Origin: Candidatus Alcyoniella australis
GTDB taxonomy: Bacteria > Lernaellota > Lernaellaia > JAVCCG01 > Alcyoniellaceae
Direction of reading: 5' to 3'
Length of the DNA: 11,213 nt
Assembly: GCA_030765605.1 (NCBI GenBank)
Contig: JAVCCG010000027.1
Coordinates: forward strand, 1-11,213
Shown one piece after another: positions 1,161-11,213 of the stretch. The notes under the pieces were generated by a model. It ran no database searches. It saw only the letters and a program-made list of their open reading frames with translations, and was not told the DNA's origin. A program made the translations under genes and the position numbers. How positions within the stretch are numbered: position 1 is the stretch's first letter; each line of letters begins with the position of its first letter.

Positions 1161-1907
1161 ATGAGCGTGGCCTACAAGATCGGCGAAGCGCAGCTCGATG
1201 GCCGACCGCCGATAGTGGCGATCCACGGTGCGGGCGGAGATAAAAGCGCCTGGCAGGCCGTGCAGCGGCTGGCCGGTTCGCACTGGCCGCTGTTGGCACT
1301 GGATTTGCCCGGACACGGAGCGAGCGACGGCGAATCGTGCGACACGGTGCGCGGCTACCTGGCGCAGGTGATCGCGCTGTGCGACCAATTGGAGATCGCG
1401 CGCGCAATCTGGCTGGGCCACAGCATGGGCGGGGCCATCAGCCAGCTCGCGGCATTGGAGCATCCGGAGCGCGTGGCCGGGCTGGCGCTGGTGGCGACCT
1501 CGGCGCGTCTCAAGGTAGCCGACCAGATTCTGCTTACCCTGCGCGAGGAGCCCGAGCAGTTCTTCATGCTCTTCGAACGCTTCGCCTTTGGCCCCACGGC
1601 AACGCCGCAGATCATCGACCAGTCACAACAGGTGATGCGCGCTGTGGGCGTTGAGGTGCTGATTAACGACTTTCGCGCCTGCAACGCCTTTGACGTGCGC
1701 GAACGCGTGGCGCAGATCGACGCGCCGTGTCTGGCGATCGGCGCGCAGCACGACCTGTTGACCCCGGCCAAACACGTGCAGTGGCTGGCCGAACAGATCC
1801 CGGGCGCGCGCTTCGAGCTGATCGAGGATTCGGGCCACATGCTGCCGCTTGAGGCCTACAAGCAGGTGTCGCAGTTGCTGCTTGATTTCTGCCGGGGGAT
1901 CGGATGA
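1161..1907 (+). CDS. cytoplasmic alpha/beta hydrolase
   Basis: This 248-residue alpha/beta hydrolase fold protein has no signal peptide, so it probably acts in the cytoplasm. Visible elements are the oxyanion region HGAGG (22-26), the strand DLPGHGAS (48-55) typical of the AB-hydrolase 1 family, the nucleophile elbow GHSMGG (86-91, Ser88), a catalytic acid in QHD (Asp198) and the His in SGHM (His226). The triad is complete and the length is standard. Related folds include esterases, lactonases, C-C bond hydrolases and haloperoxidase-like proteins, and sequence alone does not decide among them. Its stop codon overlaps the start of the GlcD-like oxidase gene (ATGA), implying translational coupling. 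A role in releasing or trimming the 2-hydroxyacid used by that oxidase is a reasonable inference, not shown. Confidence 0.85.
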   Translation: MSVAYKIGEAQLDGRPPIVAIHGAGGDKSAWQAVQRLAGSHWPLLALDLPGHGASDGESCDTVRGYLAQVIALCDQLEIARAIWLGHSMGGAISQLAALEHPERVAGLALVATSARLKVADQILLTLREEPEQFFMLFERFAFGPTATPQIIDQSQQVMRAVGVEVLINDFRACNAFDVRERVAQIDAPCLAIGAQHDLLTPAKHVQWLAEQIPGARFELIEDSGHMLPLEAYKQVSQLLLDFCRGIG

Positions 1908-3283
1908 GTGCGCCGACCCGCGGCTCGCTGCTCGATCTGGTGCAAATCGTGGGTCGCGACAACGCGTTGAGCGCGCGCGAGGATCTAGTGCCGTTCGCCG
2001 CCGACGCCAAGGTCGAGGGCGCGGCCCCGGCGCTGGTGCTCTTCCCGCGCGAGGAGCAGCAGGTGTGCGACGTGCTGCGTTATTGCTCGCAACGCGGATT
2101 GCCGGTAGTGCCGCGCGGCGCGGCCACCGGGACCATCGGCGGTGCGATTCCCGAGTTCCCCGGAGCGGTGGTGCTTAGCCTGGAGCGGATGAACCGCATC
2201 GTCGAGATCAACGCGCGCGACGGCTACGCGGAGGTCGAGCCCGGCGTGGTTTGCGACGCGCTCAAGGCCGAGGCCCGCGCGCACGGGCTGTTCTATCCGC
2301 CCGACCCGGCCTCGGCCGACACCTCGACCGTGGGCGGCAACGCCTCGACCAACGCCGGCGGATTGCGCGCGGTGAAGTACGGCGTGACCCGCGATTACGT
2401 GCTGGGGTTGCACGCGGTTCTGAGCTCGGGCGAGCTGATCCGCACCGGCGTGCGCACACGCAAGGGTGTGATGGGCTACGACCTGACGCGGCTGCTGGTC
2501 GGCTCCGAGGGAACCCTGGCCGTAATCACGCGGCTGATCCTGCGGCTGGCGCCCGCGCCGGAGTCGGTGCTCACGCTCAGCGCGTCTTTCGCCGGTATGG
2601 AGCAGGCGGGCGAGGCGGTGGTGGCGCTGATGCAGGGACGCGTATTGCCCGCGGCGCTGGAACTGATGGATCGCGCCAGCCTCGAGGTCGTGCAGGCCGA
2701 ACTTGCGCCGGGCTGCGAGGCGCTGCTGCTGATCGATTGCGACGGCGAGACGCAGCAGGTGCAACGCGAGATCGAACAAATCGAACGGCTGATGCAAGAG
2801 CGCGGCGCGTTGCAGGTCGAGGTGGCGCGCGACCAGGCCCAGTCCGAGCGGCTGTGGAAGGCACGGCGCTCGATCAGCCCGGCGATCTACAAGATCAAAT
2901 CGCGCAAGTTCGCCGAGGACGTGACCGTGCCGATCTCGCGCATTCCCGAGCTGCTGCGCCGCGTGGCGGACGCGGCCGCCCAAAACCGCGTGCTCAACGT
3001 CAACTACGGCCACGCCGGGGACGGCAACATCCACGTCAACGTGTTGTTCGATCCCGACGACCAAGACGAGCGCGCCCGGGCCGAACAAACCGTGCAGCAG
3101 GTATTCCGTATTACCCTCGAACTGGGGGGCACGCTCTCGGGCGAGCACGGCGTGGGCCTGGCCAAACGCGAGGCGTTGCGGCTCGAGATCGACCCGACGC
3201 AGATCGAGTTGCAGCGCCGGATCAAGGCCGCATTCGACCCGGCCGGAATCCTCAATCCCGGGAAAGGGCTGCCCCCGCGCTGA
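1904..3283 (+). CDS. glcD: FAD-linked 2-hydroxyacid oxidase subunit, GlcD-like (D-lactate/glycolate dehydrogenase)
   Basis: This 459-residue flavoprotein oxidises a 2-hydroxyacid such as D-lactate or glycolate to the 2-oxoacid. The N-terminal half is a PCMH/FAD-binding-4 domain: PRGAATG near 70-76, PPDP (132-135), GGNASTNAGG (144-153), YGVTRDYV (159-166) and GSEGTLAVIT (200-209). The C-terminal half is the FAD-oxidase cap with GHAGDGNIHVN (369-379) and SGEHGVG (412-418), which carry the conserved His residues of the family. It ends with FDPAGILNPGK (444-454). It is slightly shorter than E. coli GlcD but looks complete. It overlaps the preceding hydrolase by 4 nt and is followed 6 nt later by a GlcF-like gene, so electrons probably pass to that iron-sulfur partner and on to quinone. 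No GlcE subunit is present. Substrate assignment between lactate and glycolate is open. Confidence 0.92.
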   Translation: MSAPTRGSLLDLVQIVGRDNALSAREDLVPFAADAKVEGAAPALVLFPREEQQVCDVLRYCSQRGLPVVPRGAATGTIGGAIPEFPGAVVLSLERMNRIVEINARDGYAEVEPGVVCDALKAEARAHGLFYPPDPASADTSTVGGNASTNAGGLRAVKYGVTRDYVLGLHAVLSSGELIRTGVRTRKGVMGYDLTRLLVGSEGTLAVITRLILRLAPAPESVLTLSASFAGMEQAGEAVVALMQGRVLPAALELMDRASLEVVQAELAPGCEALLLIDCDGETQQVQREIEQIERLMQERGALQVEVARDQAQSERLWKARRSISPAIYKIKSRKFAEDVTVPISRIPELLRRVADAAAQNRVLNVNYGHAGDGNIHVNVLFDPDDQDERARAEQTVQQVFRITLELGGTLSGEHGVGLAKREALRLEIDPTQIELQRRIKAAFDPAGILNPGKGLPPR

Positions 3284-3289
3284 ACGCAG

Positions 3290-4573
3290 ATGGACCGTGA
3301 AAGGCTGAACTCCATCATCGACGAGCAGGCCCAGCGTTGCGTGCGCTGCGGCAAGTGCCGCTCGGTCTGTCCGGTTTTCGGCGAAGCGCTAAGCGAGCCG
3401 CTGTCCGCGCGGGGCAAGCTTTCGCTGCTGCGCGCGCTACAGGACGGTGAACGGCTCGATCCGCGGCAGGTCGTGGAGCGCCTCGAGGCCTGCCTGCTGT
3501 GCGGACGCTGCGCAGAGGTCTGCAACGCGGGGGTCGAACCGCAGCTCGCGATACGAGCTGCACGCGAACTGCTTCGCGGACGCGAGGGCCTGGGATCGCT
3601 GTGGCGTTTGGCCTACGAGCAGGTGCTGCCGCGGCCCGCGCTGCTTGGTCCGGCGCTGCGCATTGCAACGCGCCTGGCCGCGTTGACCGGCAGCGGACCG
3701 GACGAGGGCAGCGGGATTTTCTATCGCCTGTCACGGCCCGCAGCAATGGAGGGCAGGGCCCTGCCGCGGGTCAGCGGCGAGTTTTTTATCGAGCAGCCCA
3801 GCCAGCCGCGGGCCCGGGGCGAACGACGGGGCAAGGCCGTGCTGTTTTGTGGCTGCGTTCACAACTACGTCGAGCCCGAGGTCAGCCACGCCACGGCGCG
3901 GATGGTCGCGGCCCTGGGATACGATGTGAGCGTGCCGACCGACCAGTGCTGCTGCGGCTTGGCGGCCCACGGTGCGGGGGACGCTCCTGCCGCACAACGC
4001 ATGGCGCGGCGTAATATCGACGCACTGCTGCGCGACGATCCGGACTGGATCGTCACCAACTGCGGTTCGTGCGGCGCGATGCTCAAACACGGGCTGCCCG
4101 AGCTTTTCGAGCATGACGACCCGCAGCGCGAGCGGGCCGAGAAGCTGGCCTCCAAGGTGATCGACGTGCTCGATCTGGTCGACCGTGAGGCGCGGCCGGG
4201 GCTGATTAGGCGTATCGAGCCTGAGGGCGGCGGCAAGGTGACCTACCACGACTCATGTCATCTGCGGCTGGAGATGCAGGTGCGCGATCAGCCGCGGCGG
4301 TTGCTGCGCAGCGCCCTGGGCGAAAATTTCGTCGAGATGCCCGGAGCGCAGTTGTGCTGCGGATCGGGAGGTGCGTTCAGCCTGCACTGCCCGCAGCTCA
4401 GCCGTGCGATACTCGAGCGCAAGCTCGATGGTGTGCGCCGCAGCGGAGCGCAATCCGTGGCCGCGGCCTGCGGCGGATGCCTGTTGCAGCTGCGCGACAT
4501 GGCGCTGAAGATCCCGGGCCTGCGCGTGGAGCACCCGCTGTATTGGCTTGAACCGACCGAGCAAAGTGATTAG
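3290..4573 (+). CDS. glcF: iron-sulfur electron-transfer subunit, GlcF-like (4Fe-4S plus CCG domains)
   Basis: This 427-residue partner of the GlcD-like oxidase most likely carries electrons from its flavin to the membrane quinone pool. Two ferredoxin-like 4Fe-4S motifs sit near the N terminus: CVRCGKCRSVCP (17-28) and CLLCGRCAEVC (68-78). After a variable middle come two cysteine-rich CCG domains. The first includes FCGCVHN, DQCCCGLAAHG and NCGSCGAM. The second includes YHDSCHLR, QLCCGSGGAF and AACGGC. This architecture is that of GlcF, heterodisulfide-reductase-D-like and LutA/LldE-related proteins; direct adjacency to the GlcD gene favours the GlcF role. No transmembrane segment is evident, so association with the membrane would be peripheral. 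There is no clear ribosome binding site; its start lies 6 nt after the oxidase stop, suggesting translational coupling. Confidence 0.9.
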   Translation: MDRERLNSIIDEQAQRCVRCGKCRSVCPVFGEALSEPLSARGKLSLLRALQDGERLDPRQVVERLEACLLCGRCAEVCNAGVEPQLAIRAARELLRGREGLGSLWRLAYEQVLPRPALLGPALRIATRLAALTGSGPDEGSGIFYRLSRPAAMEGRALPRVSGEFFIEQPSQPRARGERRGKAVLFCGCVHNYVEPEVSHATARMVAALGYDVSVPTDQCCCGLAAHGAGDAPAAQRMARRNIDALLRDDPDWIVTNCGSCGAMLKHGLPELFEHDDPQRERAEKLASKVIDVLDLVDREARPGLIRRIEPEGGGKVTYHDSCHLRLEMQVRDQPRRLLRSALGENFVEMPGAQLCCGSGGAFSLHCPQLSRAILERKLDGVRRSGAQSVAAACGGCLLQLRDMALKIPGLRVEHPLYWLEPTEQSD

Positions 4574-4610
4574 TCTTTTCATGCTGTAATTAGTGGAAAA
4601 AGCGAAAGAG

Positions 4611-5585
4611 ATGTCGGACGAAAAGCAGAAAGCAACGCAGGAAAATACCAGCGATGACGTGGAGGTAATACCTCCTACGGATTCGTCCGACCACGGCGGC
4701 AAACCGGCCGAGCCGTTTCCGACGATAGACAAAAAGGGCGAGCAGGTCGGCCTGGTCTCGCTGACCCCGCTGCAGCGCTACTTGGCCGAGGTCCGGCGTT
4801 TTCCGCTGCTCACGCGCGAGCAGGAGAAAGATCTGGCCGTGCGGCTGTTTGAAAAGAACGACGCCGAGGCCGCCTACCGATTGGTGGTGAGCAATTTACG
4901 GTTAGTAGTAAAAATCGCCATGGACTTCCGCCGGGCGTTCGTCAACGTGCTCGACCTGATTCAGGAGGGGAACATCGGCCTGATGCAGGCGGTGTCCAAG
5001 TACGATCCCTACCGCGGCACCAAGCTCTCGAGCTACGCCGCGTGGTGGATCAAGGCCTACATCCTGCGCTACATCCTCAACAACTGGCGGATGGTCAAGG
5101 CCGGTACGACCCAGGCCCAGCGCAAGCTGTTCTACAATCTGCAGAAAGAGAAGGAGCGGCTCTCGGCGATGGGCATCGAGCCCAGCGCGCAGCTGATCGC
5201 CAAGCAGCTCGACGTGCCCACCCGCGAGGTGGTCGAGATGGAGAAGCGCATGGAGCGGCCCGAGATGTCGCTCGACGCTCCGCTGTCCCGGGACGGCAGC
5301 GGCACGGCGATGGACCTGATTCCCGCCAGAACGCAGCAGCCCGACGAGCTGGTCGAAAAAGCCGACCAGGCCCAGCGCGTCAGCGATCTGCTCGAGGAGT
5401 TCAGCCTGACCCTGAATGAGAAGGAGAGCTTCATCTATCGCAATCGGATGCTCGCCGAGGACCCGATGACCCTGCAGGAGATCGGCGACGAATACGACAT
5501 CAGCCGCGAGCGCGTGCGCCAGATCGAGAAGAAGCTGATGTCCAAGCTCAAGGACTTCATGGTACAAAATGATTTTGAATACTGA
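4611..5585 (+). CDS. rpoH: RNA polymerase sigma factor, RpoH (sigma-32) type
   Basis: This is an alternative sigma-70-family factor of 324 residues from ATG 4611; an in-frame GTG at 4593 would add six. Region 1.2/2 starts at LTPLQRYLAEVRRFPLLTRE (51-70). Region 2.1-2.4 spans about 88-163, including VLDLIQEGNIGLMQAVSKYD. The RpoH box QRKLFYNLQKEKERL (170-184), the signature separating sigma-32 from RpoD, RpoS and flagellar sigmas, follows directly. Region 4 has the helix-turn-helix TLQEIGDEYDISRERVRQIE (287-306). There is no region 1.1, which argues against RpoD. The first ~48 residues are a polar, acidic, Pro-rich extension not seen in the 284-residue E. coli protein. The gene begins 37 nt after the GlcF-like gene. 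In known bacteria RpoH directs heat-shock chaperone and protease genes; which promoters it uses here is not visible. Confidence 0.88.
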   Translation: MSDEKQKATQENTSDDVEVIPPTDSSDHGGKPAEPFPTIDKKGEQVGLVSLTPLQRYLAEVRRFPLLTREQEKDLAVRLFEKNDAEAAYRLVVSNLRLVVKIAMDFRRAFVNVLDLIQEGNIGLMQAVSKYDPYRGTKLSSYAAWWIKAYILRYILNNWRMVKAGTTQAQRKLFYNLQKEKERLSAMGIEPSAQLIAKQLDVPTREVVEMEKRMERPEMSLDAPLSRDGSGTAMDLIPARTQQPDELVEKADQAQRVSDLLEEFSLTLNEKESFIYRNRMLAEDPMTLQEIGDEYDISRERVRQIEKKLMSKLKDFMVQNDFEY

Positions 5586-6922: not shown

Positions 6923-9900
6923 ATGAAATTTGTAGCTGACCTACATATCCACTCCAAGTACAGCCGGGCCACCAGCGGGCGTAGCGATTTGCCCAACCTC
7001 TGGCTCTGGGCACAGCTCAAGGGAATCGGCGTGGTGGGCACCGGCGACTTCACCCATCCGGCGTGGTCCGCCGAGCTGGCGCAGAGTCTGGAACCGGCCG
7101 AGCCGGGCCTGTACAAGCTCAAACGCGAACTGCGCGCGCCGCTGGAATCCGAGATCCCCGCGAGCTGTCGCAGCCAGGTGCGCTTCATGCTCAGCTCCGA
7201 GATCTCGACGATCTACAAGCGCGACGGCCGCACGCGCAAGGTTCACAGCGTGATTCTCGCCCCGGACCTGGAGGACGCGGCGCGGATCAGCGCGCAGCTC
7301 GATCGCATCGGCAACATCCGCTCCGACGGTCGGCCGATCCTGGGCCTGGACCAGCGCGACCTGTTGCAGATCGTGCTCGATTGTTCGGAGCGGGCGGTGA
7401 TGATCCCGGCGCATATCTGGACCCCGTGGTTCTCGGCCCTGGGCAGCAAGTCGGGCTTCGAGTGCCTCGAGGATTGTTACGGCGAGCTGTACAAACATAT
7501 CTTCGCCGTGGAGACCGGCCTGAGCTCGGACCCGGAGATGAACTGGCGGCTCAGTGCCCTGGACGGCCTGACGTTGGTCTCCAACTCCGACTGCCACTCG
7601 CCGGAAAAGCTCGGCCGCGAGGCCAACCTCTTCGACTGCGAACTTAGCTACGATGCGATAATCCGCGCACTGCGGCGCGAGAGCGGGCCGGACCAGTTCC
7701 TGGGCACCATCGAGTTCTACCCGCACCAGGGCAAGTACCATTACGACGGCCATCGCAAGTGCGGCGTGCGCCTCGACCCCGCCCAGACACGCGAGTGCGG
7801 CGGCCTGTGCCCCGAGTGCGGCAAGCCGGTGACCGTGGGCGTGCTCAATCGAATCGATCAGCTTGCCGACCGCGAGCTTGGCGACAGGCCCGACCAGGCG
7901 TTGCCCTACGAAAGCTTGATCCCGCTTAGCTCGGTGATCGGCGACGCGCTGGACCGCGGCGAGAACACCAAGGGCGTGCGTAGCGCCTACTTCGACGTGC
8001 TCCAAAAGCTCGGCCCCGAGCTCGATGTACTGCGTAGCGCGCCCATCGAAAGCCTGCGCTCCATTGACCAGCCGCTGGTGGCCGCGGGCGTGGATCGCGC
8101 GCGGCGCGGCGAGGTGCACATCGACGCGGGCTACGACGGCGAGTACGGAACGGTGCGGCTTTTCGGCCCGGACGAGCGCCAACGGATTCTCAAGCAATCG
8201 GCGCTGTTTGATATCGCGCCCAAGGCAGCGGCGTCCAAGGCCAAGCCGCGTCCCAGGCGACCGCGCGTCAAAGTCGCGGCCGTTGTTGGCGACGATCCCG
8301 AGCCAGCGGACGCCGAGCCGAGCCAGGAGCGGGACGGTCTCAACCCCGAGCAGCTTGCGGCCGCGCTGATCGATCGTGGTCCGCTGCTGATCGTGGCCGG
8401 CCCGGGCACGGGCAAGACGCGCACCCTCACGCGCCGCATCGCCCGGCTGGTAAACGAGGCAATTGTAAAACCCGAGAACGTGCTGGCCGTGACCTTTACC
8501 AACCGCGCGGCGGACCAGATGCGCCAACGGCTGTATGCGCTGCTCGACGCGCGCGACGCGACGCGGCTGACGGTCTGCACCTTCCACGCCCTGGGGCTCT
8601 CGATTTTGCGTGAGCTGGGCGACCCGGAACTCTCAATCGTGGGGCCCGACGCGCGTCTGGAGTTGATCGCCTCGATCGAGCCGGGGCTCAAGCGCTCCGA
8701 GGTGCGGCGGCTGGCCGAACGGATCTCGCTTTGTAAGGCGCGGCTGGCCGAGCCCGATCAAGAGCTGAGCCGAACTTATCAGGCTTACGACGAGGCCCTG
8801 CGCCAGGGGCGGCAGTTGGACTTGGACGACCTGATCGTACGTTGCGTGGAGCTGCTGCGCGCAGATGACGCGGCGCTATGCGTTTTGCGCGAGCGTTATA
8901 CGAGCATGTCGGTGGACGAGTACCAAGACGTCAATCCGGCGCAACAGGCGCTGCTGGAGCTGCTCGCGCCGCCGGGCGCGGACCTGTGCGTGATCGGCGA
9001 TCCGGACCAGGCGATCTATGGCTTCCGCGGGGCGGAACAAGGATTCATCGAGCGCTTCGAGCAAGGCTACCCCGGAACGCGAACCGTCGGATTGGTGCGC
9101 AACTACCGCTCCAGCGGCCGCATCATCCAGGCCTCGGGCCAGGTGATCGAGGCCGGTCGCGGACGGCTGGCCGCGCGCATCAGCGGGCAGGGGCCGGGCG
9201 GCACGCTGCTGGTGCGACAGGCCTGCGCCACGGACCGTGCCGAGGCCGAGTTCGTGGCCCACAGCATCGAGCGCTTGATCCAGGGCACGGGCTTTTTCTC
9301 CATCGACTCCGGCCGCCTCGAGGGCGAACAGCAGCCCGACGAGGAACTGGGATTTTCCGACATCGCGGTGCTTTACCGACTCTCGGCCCTGTCCAAGCCG
9401 GTGCAGCAGGCGCTCTCGCGCCTGGGCGTGCCGTTCCAAATTGCGGGCGAGGGCTCGTTCTACGAGCGGCCCGAAATCGCGCCGTTGATCCAGCGGCTGG
9501 ATAAGTTATGTCACGATCCGCAGGCGGCGCAGCGCCCGGCATGCGAGGCGATCGAGAGTTTGGCCGCAGAGTGTGTGGCGGACGAGCCGTGGGTCGGATT
9601 GATCTCGCGCGCCCGGGCAATGGGCGATCTTGATTTGCGCGCATTTTGCGACCGCGCGGTTTTGAGCAGCGCGGCGGACGAGCACGACCCGCGGGCCCAA
9701 GCGGTCTCGCTGATGACCATGCACGCGGCCAAGGGGCTGGAGTTCCCCGTGGTGTTCATCGTCGGCTGCGAGGCCGGGGTGCTGCCATTTGTGCGCGAGG
9801 ACGACGGCGAACGCCAGCTCGAGGAGGAGCGCCGGCTGCTCTACGTGGCCATGACCCGCGCCCAGCACCACCTCTATCTGAGCTACGCCCGCTCGCGCAT

Positions 9901-10033
9901 GCTGTTCGGCAAGCGCCTGCCCGGCGAGCCCTCGCCGCTGATCGAGCAGATTCAGGCCGAGCTGACGCGCTGCGAACAACGCCGCGGCAAAGCTCGGGAA
10001 CGTTGCAACGGCGGACAACTCGAGCTGCTATAA
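6923..10033 (+). CDS. endonuclease Q-like PHP nuclease fused to UvrD/Rep-type SF1A helicase
   Basis: This is a 1036-residue two-enzyme fusion. Residues 1-431 match the EndoQ family (formerly the TIGR00375 PHP family): metal motifs DLHIH (6-10), GTGDFTH (39-45), SSEIS (91-95), His108, PAHIWTPW (162-169) and NSDCHS (221-226). A four-Cys zinc finger follows at C280, C292, C296 and C299. EndoQ nicks DNA 5' of deaminated bases and abasic sites. Residues 432-471 are a basic-then-acidic linker. Residues 472-1036 form an SF1A helicase with all motifs: Walker A GPGTGKT (493-499), VTFTNRAA (Ia), DEYQD (665-669), GDPDQAIYGFRG (692-703), NYRSS (727-731), LMTMHAAKGLEF (930-941) and LLYVAMTRAQ (972-981). 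The 2B subdomain is unusually short. The start is fixed by the N-terminal PHP motif, though no ribosome binding site is seen. Likely role: repair of deaminated DNA. Confidence 0.92.
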   Translation: MKFVADLHIHSKYSRATSGRSDLPNLWLWAQLKGIGVVGTGDFTHPAWSAELAQSLEPAEPGLYKLKRELRAPLESEIPASCRSQVRFMLSSEISTIYKRDGRTRKVHSVILAPDLEDAARISAQLDRIGNIRSDGRPILGLDQRDLLQIVLDCSERAVMIPAHIWTPWFSALGSKSGFECLEDCYGELYKHIFAVETGLSSDPEMNWRLSALDGLTLVSNSDCHSPEKLGREANLFDCELSYDAIIRALRRESGPDQFLGTIEFYPHQGKYHYDGHRKCGVRLDPAQTRECGGLCPECGKPVTVGVLNRIDQLADRELGDRPDQALPYESLIPLSSVIGDALDRGENTKGVRSAYFDVLQKLGPELDVLRSAPIESLRSIDQPLVAAGVDRARRGEVHIDAGYDGEYGTVRLFGPDERQRILKQSALFDIAPKAAASKAKPRPRRPRVKVAAVVGDDPEPADAEPSQERDGLNPEQLAAALIDRGPLLIVAGPGTGKTRTLTRRIARLVNEAIVKPENVLAVTFTNRAADQMRQRLYALLDARDATRLTVCTFHALGLSILRELGDPELSIVGPDARLELIASIEPGLKRSEVRRLAERISLCKARLAEPDQELSRTYQAYDEALRQGRQLDLDDLIVRCVELLRADDAALCVLRERYTSMSVDEYQDVNPAQQALLELLAPPGADLCVIGDPDQAIYGFRGAEQGFIERFEQGYPGTRTVGLVRNYRSSGRIIQASGQVIEAGRGRLAARISGQGPGGTLLVRQACATDRAEAEFVAHSIERLIQGTGFFSIDSGRLEGEQQPDEELGFSDIAVLYRLSALSKPVQQALSRLGVPFQIAGEGSFYERPEIAPLIQRLDKLCHDPQAAQRPACEAIESLAAECVADEPWVGLISRARAMGDLDLRAFCDRAVLSSAADEHDPRAQAVSLMTMHAAKGLEFPVVFIVGCEAGVLPFVREDDGERQLEEERRLLYVAMTRAQHHLYLSYARSRMLFGKRLPGEPSPLIEQIQAELTRCEQRRGKARERCNGGQLELL

Positions 10034-10065: not shown

Positions 10066-11213
10066 ATGAACAAGCACATTGCATTGAGATCGCTGTTGTC
10101 GTTGCTGCTGATTCTGGCCCTGGTCTGCTGTGCGGCCTGCGGGCCCGATAGCGGCGACGACGATGACCACAGCGGCCCGGACGACGACGATCAGCAGTCC
10201 CCGCCCGCCGACTCCCAACGGCCCTGGGACGACCTATGCCGCTTCGAGCGTTGCGACGAGCCGCGCTCGCTCGACTCCCTGGGCTACGAGCTGTTGCAGT
10301 CCGGCGCGAGCTACTGCGGTTCGATCACGCCCGAGTCCTCATTCCACGACGTGCTCAAAATTACCGACCTGCTGGCCACGCGCTTCGAGCGGCCGGTGGA
10401 ATACTACGTTCAATCGACGCAGACCACGGCCGATTACACCCAGTACCGCATCGTGTTTAACGACCCGGTCGTGGGCACGTTCATGGCATTGCTTAGCGTA
10501 CCCAGTGCCGGAACCCCTCCGTACTCCGCGGCGTTGATGACCCACGGTCACGGAGATCCGGCGGGCAACGCGCAGCAGATGTTCGAGCTCGGCGGGCCGG
10601 TGCTGGCGCTGTTGGGTGTGGTCACGCTGAGCTGGGACGTCAAGGAGATGGGAATTCCCACGGGGGACGACAAGAGTCTGTGGTCGGATGAGCTGGCCGT
10701 GCGCCTGGCGGCTTTTAATCGCACAACCTACGGAGTGATGGTTTTCAAGGCGGCGCTGCTGTTTGATTTCCTCGCCTCGGGCGCACTGGTCCAGGTCGAC
10801 GATTCGCGCATCGGATTGTTCGGCCACTGCGGCGGCGCATTTTTCAGCTACAACATGCTGGCGCTGGATAGTCGCGCCAAGGTAGCGGTGACCGATATCT
10901 GGTCGTCGTTCCCCGAGCCCGGGGAGGGCTACGCCGAGGGCACACCCTACGACGAGATTCTGCCCCAGCTCTTCTGCTGGGGCGGCGGCGGCCGCCTGGA
11001 TGCGCTGGCCGCGCTCAGGCCGAGTTTCAGTTACGAGTACGGCTACCCGGACTATACGGTAGTCACCGCGGCCCAGACCCTGACCGCCGAGTTGGCGAAA
11101 CCGGCCGATTGCACCGATGGCGTGTGCGGCCCGGGAGATACGCCGATCAATTGCCCCTCCGAGTGCGCCGATCCCGGAGCGAACGCGCCGTTCAGCTCGG
11201 CTGCCGCGCCGAT
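10066..11213 (+). CDS. lipoprotein with alpha/beta hydrolase fold and Cys nucleophile elbow (partial, 3' end missing)
   Basis: From ATG 10066 the frame stays open for 382 codons to the window edge. The N terminus MNKHIALRSLLSLLLILALV leads to a lipobox ending at Cys25 (CAAC), so an exported lipid-anchored protein is expected. Residues 26-50 are an Asp/Ser/Pro-rich low-complexity linker with two DDDD runs, probably a spacer from the membrane. The globular part shows alpha/beta hydrolase features: a strand ending in THGHG (159-163) as the oxyanion region, and IGLFGHCGGAFF with the elbow GHCGG (253-257). Cys255 replaces the usual Ser. Dienelactone hydrolase shows that Cys can serve in this position. 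Several more Cys lie near the edge (CTDGVC, NCPSEC) and may form disulfides. The acid and His of the triad would be expected further on and cannot be judged. Substrate unknown. The ribosome binding site is weak (GGGTGG at 10057-10062). Confidence 0.75.
   Translation, partial: MNKHIALRSLLSLLLILALVCCAACGPDSGDDDDHSGPDDDDQQSPPADSQRPWDDLCRFERCDEPRSLDSLGYELLQSGASYCGSITPESSFHDVLKITDLLATRFERPVEYYVQSTQTTADYTQYRIVFNDPVVGTFMALLSVPSAGTPPYSAALMTHGHGDPAGNAQQMFELGGPVLALLGVVTLSWDVKEMGIPTGDDKSLWSDELAVRLAAFNRTTYGVMVFKAALLFDFLASGALVQVDDSRIGLFGHCGGAFFSYNMLALDSRAKVAVTDIWSSFPEPGEGYAEGTPYDEILPQLFCWGGGGRLDALAALRPSFSYEYGYPDYTVVTAAQTLTAELAKPADCTDGVCGPGDTPINCPSECADPGANAPFSSAAAP

Follow-up and report, generated by a model that had tools for sequence, protein, structure and literature searches.

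Analysis of the contig JAVCCG010000027.1 of Candidatus Alcyoniella australis (the window hereafter, 11213 bases, which is the entire contig C27 of an assembly of 157 contigs) revealed a single gene that joins a homologue of EndoQ, a nuclease of deaminated DNA, to a UvrD/Rep-type helicase. This EndoQ-UvrD fusion is a widespread bacterial architecture rather than an oddity of the window, and it probably represents a repair enzyme for deaminated and abasic DNA that is tethered to the sliding clamp, nicks the damaged strand and unwinds it. The proposal builds on the architecture itself, on its conserved active sites and motifs and on the co-inheritance of the two halves, from which we infer each of the biochemical steps.

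The gene extends from an ATG to a stop codon with zero internal stops, and the same frame runs uninterrupted over 1047 amino acids from stop to stop in the assembly. The one-chain reading of the initial annotation thus stands, with no frameshift splitting the frame into two genes. A full-length AlphaFold2 model was built from a 42-sequence alignment and reached a mean predicted local distance difference test (pLDDT) score of 85.6, with disorder predicted at residues 430-470 and 1022-1036 (pLDDT <50). The mutual placement of the two halves in this model is poorly determined (predicted template modelling score, pTM, 0.57). The layout of the gene is as follows (SF1A, superfamily 1A):

6923..10033, + strand: EndoQ-UvrD fusion gene, 1036 amino acids, single open frame
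6923..8206, + strand: EndoQ-like PHP nuclease domain, residues 1-428, assigned by its match to PfuEndoQ, its fold and a TIGR00375 match below the cut-off
8210..8332, + strand: disordered linker, residues 430-470
8336..9982, + strand: UvrD/Rep-type SF1A helicase domain, residues 472-1020, assigned by Pfam UvrD-helicase and UvrD_C and by Z of about 40 with Rep, UvrD and PcrA

Distribution of the fusion

A scan of named genomes with the EndoQ half returned at least 552 relatives, and the fusion state was judged on the best 80 of these, a relative being counted as fused when helicase motif II lay within the same long frame as the EndoQ half. By this definition the fusion is clear in 61 of these 80 nearest relatives, so that the guess that similar proteins already sit in databases proved right. 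The fused relatives span about ten phyla, including Desulfobacterota, KSB1, Chloroflexota, Myxococcota, Gemmatimonadota, Acidobacteriota, Planctomycetota, Actinomycetota, Binatota and SAR324. Among 148 sampled genomes of the Desulfobacterota, the phylum of Desulfonema, the EndoQ half was found in 104, and 42 of these frames are at least 890 amino acids long. Among the seven genomes examined from the window's own small phylum, the EndoQ half is present only in the window's genome and absent from the other six.

Four relatives (L087 from Sorangium, L048, L034 and L042) have fusion frames that stop prematurely or miss part of the helicase motifs or the clamp-binding motif described below; in L048 the helicase carries on in another frame that ends in QLKLF. 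We regard these anomalies as frameshifts, pseudogenes or assembly errors.

Evolution of the fused and split forms

Within the Omnitrophota, EndoQ and the helicase are encoded as two genes, the helicase gene lying immediately downstream of EndoQ in five of eight loci and within 5 kb in two more. In six stand-alone EndoQ loci (L014, L018, L044, L054, L056 and L080), EndoQ is directly followed by a UvrD-type gene on its own strand, and in three others (L036, L058 and L072) such a gene is located 0.9 to 4.6 kb away. The other reading frames of the fused loci include no second UvrD-type gene.

All seven Omnitrophota helicases, five adjacent and two near, fall inside the clade of fused helicases together with KSB1 (98*) and away from canonical UvrD, which was represented in this tree by a single outgroup sequence; the helicase of L058 falls outside the fused clade. 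The same KSB1/Omnitrophota clade is recovered in the EndoQ tree (99*), which needs at least eight changes between the fused and stand-alone states. Pairwise distances of the two halves are correlated across 62 proteins (r 0.84, a value reached in 0 of 1000 permutations), a part of this correlation being expected from vertical inheritance alone. These trees are read most simply as an old fusion that was later split several times, with the separated genes mostly staying close to each other.

Active site of the EndoQ half

Homology to EndoQ was found to span the whole N-terminal half, as had been claimed. Residues 5-416 align to PfuEndoQ (5zb8, 7k30-33) over its full length (E-value 3.6e-48) with an identity of about 33% (124/375), and model residues 1-428 superpose on it with a Z score of 43.3 over 391 residues, so that the similarity takes in the PHP domain, the zinc-finger region and the C-terminal domain of EndoQ. 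Two predicted metal-binding sites were located in this half:

6944..6952, + strand: PHP metal-ligand motif HIH (H8, H10), the other ligands being E93, H108, H164, D223 and H225 by alignment to PfuEndoQ
7751..7819, + strand: putative zinc-binding site H277-C280-C296-C299, in register with C249/C252/C268/C271 of PfuEndoQ

The seven PHP ligands correspond to H8, H10, E76, H84, H139, D193 and H195 of PfuEndoQ and are invariant in 77 relatives (61 fused and 16 other), which bears out the complete ligand set read earlier from the window. Alanine mutants of E76, H84 and H139 abolish the activity of PfuEndoQ, where thymine and adenine are kept out of the pocket by H139, G169 and S171 (review PMC8307549). 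The counterparts of these base-excluding residues, H164, G199 and S201, are again invariant in the 61 fused and 16 other relatives. Judging from homology and these conserved residues, the EndoQ half would be expected to nick 5' of uracil, hypoxanthine, xanthine and abasic sites.

The four-cysteine zinc finger of the initial annotation had to be revised: the putative zinc site is in register with that of PfuEndoQ, but its ligands align as His-Cys-Cys-Cys. Histidine occupies the first ligand position in 60 of the 61 fused relatives and in 15 of the 16 others, and C292, presumably the fourth cysteine meant before, is not among the conserved columns. Residues H268-Q269 (7724-7729) adjoin the invariant GKYH of the domain.

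Helicase half

The C-terminal half is a complete SF1A helicase, in agreement with the initial annotation. Residues 473-990 match the Pfam families UvrD-helicase (3.4e-61) and UvrD_C (1e-40), both over their gathering scores, and model residues of about 470-1020 superpose on Rep, UvrD and PcrA over about 525 residues. The full motif set is present at residues 492-499 (I), 524-527 (Ia), 553-555, 665-669 (II), 692-703 (III), 727-730 (IV), 932-941 (V) and 968-980 (VI). The main elements are:

8396..8419, + strand: Walker A AGPGTGKT (motif I), its glycines, K498 and T499 invariant in 42 sequences
8915..8929, + strand: motif II DEYQD, with D665, E666, Q668 and D669 invariant
9293..9316, + strand: family-specific insertion FFSIDSGR in 2A, seen by alignment and absent from the host's own PcrA/UvrD
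9458..9712, + strand: region of the reduced 2B subdomain, about 85 residues versus 171 in the host's own UvrD
9716..9862, + strand: motifs V and VI (TMHAAKGLEF ... EERRLLYVAMTRA)

The insertion follows the family consensus GGTSFxSxDSGRV, and a comparable insertion occurs in six split helicases. The spacing between motifs III and V is bimodal among the relatives (234-278 or 302-332 residues), with 240 residues in the window protein. Helicases of the UvrD type move with 3'-5' polarity; the 2B subdomain of Rep is autoinhibitory, and Rep without 2B is an active helicase. Neither the reduced 2B subdomain nor the two clamp-binding motifs had been mentioned in the earlier reading of the sequence.

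Candidate contacts with the sliding clamp

Two short peptides of the fusion resemble motifs by which proteins bind the bacterial clamp:

8195..8209, + strand: internal clamp-binding-like motif QSALF, residues 425-429, at the start of the linker right after the EndoQ domain
10016..10030, + strand: predicted C-terminal clamp-binding motif QLELL, residues 1032-1036, in the disordered tail 1022-1036

The clamp is dimeric and offers two identical pockets, and the motif that binds it in bacteria is QL[S/D]LF or, more generally, QxxLF (PMC12309361). We searched for Q[LM]x[LM][FLI] at most 15 residues from the C-terminus and found it in 51 of 56 complete fused proteins, as compared with 0.16% of shuffled tails; of the five proteins without it, three terminate in a near-motif (QLPF, QLRLV or QLSF), and Q1032 of the window protein occupies an invariant alignment column. 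The same motif was detected in seven of 471 other open reading frames of the loci, all seven being UvrD-type helicase frames adjoining or near EndoQ genes, and in none of the 464 remaining unrelated frames. The internal motif, Q..[LMIF][FLMV] after the EndoQ domain, is present in 46 of 60 fused proteins and 13 of 15 stand-alone EndoQs, as against 1.5% expected from shuffling.

In archaeal EndoQ, a C-terminal PCNA-interacting peptide (PIP) box binds PCNA and stimulates nicking, and beta-clamp motifs at the C-termini of bacterial EndoQs have already been remarked (PMC4858679). The new findings are that a second motif marks the helicase end, that nearly all complete fused proteins possess it and that split helicases carry it too. 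The fusion carries QxxL(F/L) peptides in accessible segments, as sliding-clamp clients do, and is predicted to bind DnaN. The functional coupling of nuclease and helicase that the initial annotation had suggested gains support from the often-adjacent split genes, the congruent trees and the clamp motifs on both halves.

Proposed pathway and its alternatives

We propose a pathway in three steps. In the first step, the EndoQ half would flip the damaged residue (uracil, hypoxanthine, xanthine or an abasic site) into the PHP/zinc pocket, as its homology and conserved residues suggest, and cut the backbone 5' of the lesion. The cut would produce a 3'-OH and a lesion that bears a 5'-phosphate, the products reported for EndoQ nicking (PMC4357722). 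In the second step, the UvrD-type motor would load at the nick on the undamaged strand and move along it 3' to 5', past the lesion, so that the 5' end with the lesion is displaced as a flap. The reduced 2B subdomain may permit unwinding by a monomer. In the third step, QSALF and QLELL would each occupy one of the identical pockets in the dimeric DnaN ring, and this tether would hold the enzyme on replicated DNA and pass the 3'-OH to a clamp-bound polymerase filling in behind. Flap removal and sealing would be left to a Pol I-type 5' nuclease and ligase; beside the fusion, a flap or strand-removal enzyme, a polymerase and a ligase would still be needed. A flap route by polymerase displacement and Fen1 has been proposed for archaea (PMC4357722), and the fusion would turn such a route into an active, helicase-driven one.

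Several observations weigh against this proposal. The search against TIGR00375 that had been suggested at the outset gave a match over residues 5-410 (E-value 7.9e-50), but its score of 170.3 bits does not reach the curated cut-off of 326.6 of this hypothetical equivalog model, so that the EndoQ half is a homologue that is not assigned to that model. Likewise, the scores against the PcrA, UvrD and Rep equivalogs (385, 315 and 325 bits) stay below the respective cut-offs (911, 1144 and 951); because no equivalog cut-off is reached in either half, the fusion is a homologue and not an orthologue of PcrA/UvrD/Rep and TIGR00375 proteins. In the window protein, H268-Q269 replace a Glu-Glu pair of the relatives (at the first position Glu in 58 of 61 fused relatives and Gln in three, at the second Glu in 61 of 61). 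Both QSALF and QLELL deviate from the exact QL[S/D]LF consensus, and a Pfam scan of the window's open reading frames found no other repair gene beside the fusion. Finally, uracil-DNA glycosylase (UDG) also occurs in 34 of 38 fusion-bearing genomes elsewhere, and since most fused genomes have this enzyme too, the repair of deaminated bases need not be the main job of the fusion.

It is conceivable, although we consider it unlikely, that the helicase acts before the nick, exposing single-stranded DNA at forks or clearing obstacles for EndoQ, and that ordinary enzymes process the nick. Such an order would suit the higher activity reported for EndoQ on uracil and hypoxanthine in single-stranded DNA (PMC11354406), and the clamp motifs suggest action at replicated DNA. 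However, prior unwinding is not required, because EndoQ cuts double-stranded DNA too (PMC8307549, PMC4357722), and a helicase that loads best at nicks would find none before cutting.

There is a small chance that the fusion serves another pathway, its PHP/EndoQ half having drifted towards a different substrate such as misincorporated ribonucleotides, branched DNA or abasic sites alone. The identity of about 33% to PfuEndoQ, the window-specific H268-Q269 and the frequent coexistence with UDG are all compatible with such a drift, whereas the residues that accept uracil and hypoxanthine and exclude thymine and adenine are invariant in 61 of 61 fused relatives, and a stand-alone bacterial enzyme, the EndoQ of B. 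pumilus, is active on uracil, hypoxanthine, xanthine and abasic sites (PMC6202378).

Bacillus EndoQ has been suggested to act in defence (PMC8307549), and the helicase half is matched by the GajB helicase models of PADLOC, which raises the slightly fainter prospect of an anti-phage enzyme that nicks uracil- or hypoxanthine-containing phage DNA and unwinds the foreign genome with its motor. The GajB matches, however, reflect generic UvrD similarity and concern the helicase half only, and among the window's open reading frames the Pfam scan recognized no GajA-like gene, the partner that a member of Gabija should have. Defence genes are absent beside the fusion in the window, and none was recognized among its most frequent neighbours (dnaN and gyrB in one clade). 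Neither plasmids nor phages nor PHROGs yielded a match to the EndoQ half, and no P0001 match was found in viral contigs either, by which we also rejected a phage or plasmid origin; the distribution in Desulfobacterota (104 of 148 genomes) resembles what a housekeeping gene would show. A fusion that arose by accident or during assembly and lacks functional meaning, for which one could cite the 157-contig assembly and the relatives encoded as two genes, is already refuted by the congruent halves and by its recurrence in independent assemblies, some of them from complete or isolate genomes (Desulfonema magnum, Actinopolyspora, Phytoactinopolyspora and Frankia).

Repair repertoire of the host

The window's genome (98.05% complete) has no match to the UDG superfamily PF03167, which is present in 13 of 14 control genomes, and EndoV, EndoIV (Nfo) and ExoIII (Xth) were not detected in it; Nfo or Xth is present in each of the 14 control genomes (control lists). 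These absences could be due to missing contigs or to divergent enzymes. The genome does encode one DnaN, one PolA-type 5' nuclease and a separate canonical PcrA/UvrD. Its six phylum relatives show the reverse pattern, with UDG in six of six and EndoQ in none.

This contrast within the phylum suggested the fusion as a general replacement of UDG, a scenario that we rejected in view of the UDG found in most fused genomes. The fusion may have taken over in the window's lineage and is usually an addition elsewhere. Because neither a UDG superfamily protein nor EndoV, EndoIV or ExoIII was detected in the host genome, we tentatively raise the possibility, less probable than not, that the clamp-bound fusion is the only dedicated enzyme starting the repair of uracil, hypoxanthine and abasic sites in this bacterium, a one-protein nick-and-unwind pathway having replaced base excision repair. 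With UDG and both families of abasic-site endonucleases apparently lacking, the host would offer a natural test of whether the fusion route can carry the whole load.

Relation to characterised enzymes

The fusion shares with EndoQ (PfuEndoQ PF1551, TkoEndoQ TK0887 and the B. pumilus enzyme) the fold, the PHP ligands and the base-excluding residues of its N-terminal half, as well as a clamp-binding motif right behind this domain (a PIP box in archaea, QxxLF in the fusion). Characterised EndoQs are stand-alone proteins of about 420 amino acids, whereas the fusion adds a helicase and a second clamp motif; it also differs by the histidine as first putative zinc ligand and by the TIGR00375 score below the cut-off. 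With the SF1A helicases PcrA, UvrD and Rep it shares all the helicase motifs and the core formed by 1A, 1B and 2A (Z about 40), but its 2B subdomain is about half the size, it carries the insertion G.T.FFS.DSGR and it reaches no equivalog cut-off. Unlike the fusion, the host's own UvrD has no clamp-binding tail.

For the clamp tether, the closest working analogue is the TkoEndoQ-PCNA complex (PMC4858679), to which the fusion would be the counterpart with a bacterial clamp and a bacterial motif, its binding being predicted. The proposed nick followed by UvrD-driven strand displacement also resembles MutH/MutL-UvrD and UvrC-UvrD excision, from which the fusion differs in holding nuclease and motor in one chain and in a lesion-directed nick that would dispense with separate recognition factors.

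Both halves are of known kinds, and their fusion, widespread in sequence databases, is apparently uncharacterised. No description of an EndoQ-helicase fusion was found among the papers searched, a search that covered text and left out figures (including 9A of PMC4357722, on domain structures of bacterial EndoQ homologues) and subscription papers; the text of PMC4357722 names Bacillus and Desulfovibrio among the bacterial homologues. EndoQ has been portrayed chiefly as a stand-alone enzyme of archaea that 'some' bacteria also possess, and the events after its nick are an open question. A bacterial form with its own motor and two clamp motifs points to clamp-guided strand displacement at the lesion after the nick, and the wide occurrence of the fusion makes this question testable in culturable organisms.

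Genomic context

The neighbours of the fusion in the window are hydrolases, an FAD-oxidase/Fe-S pair, a sigma factor and secreted or lipoprotein genes of no recognised kind. The pair (1904-4573) consists of an FAD-linked oxidase (GlcD-like) and an Fe-S/CCG protein (GlcF-like) and is likely a 2-hydroxyacid dehydrogenase. The sigma factor (4608-5585) belongs to the Sigma-70 family, with regions 1.2, 2, 3 and 4. Downstream of the fusion (10067-11213) lies the start of a lipoprotein-like gene that includes an Asp-rich stretch and is cut off by the contig end.

Within one Desulfobacterota clade, the EndoQ(-UvrD) gene is located close to, and divergent from, dnaN and gyrB (L016, L019, L025, L026, L034, L035, L037-L039, L042, L052, L055, L060, L062, L064, L071 and L074). 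This adjacency is striking but limited to that clade, so that it amounts to about one evolutionary event, and we rejected it as general evidence. About ten of these loci have one or two conserved genes (clusters c4 and c5) in between.

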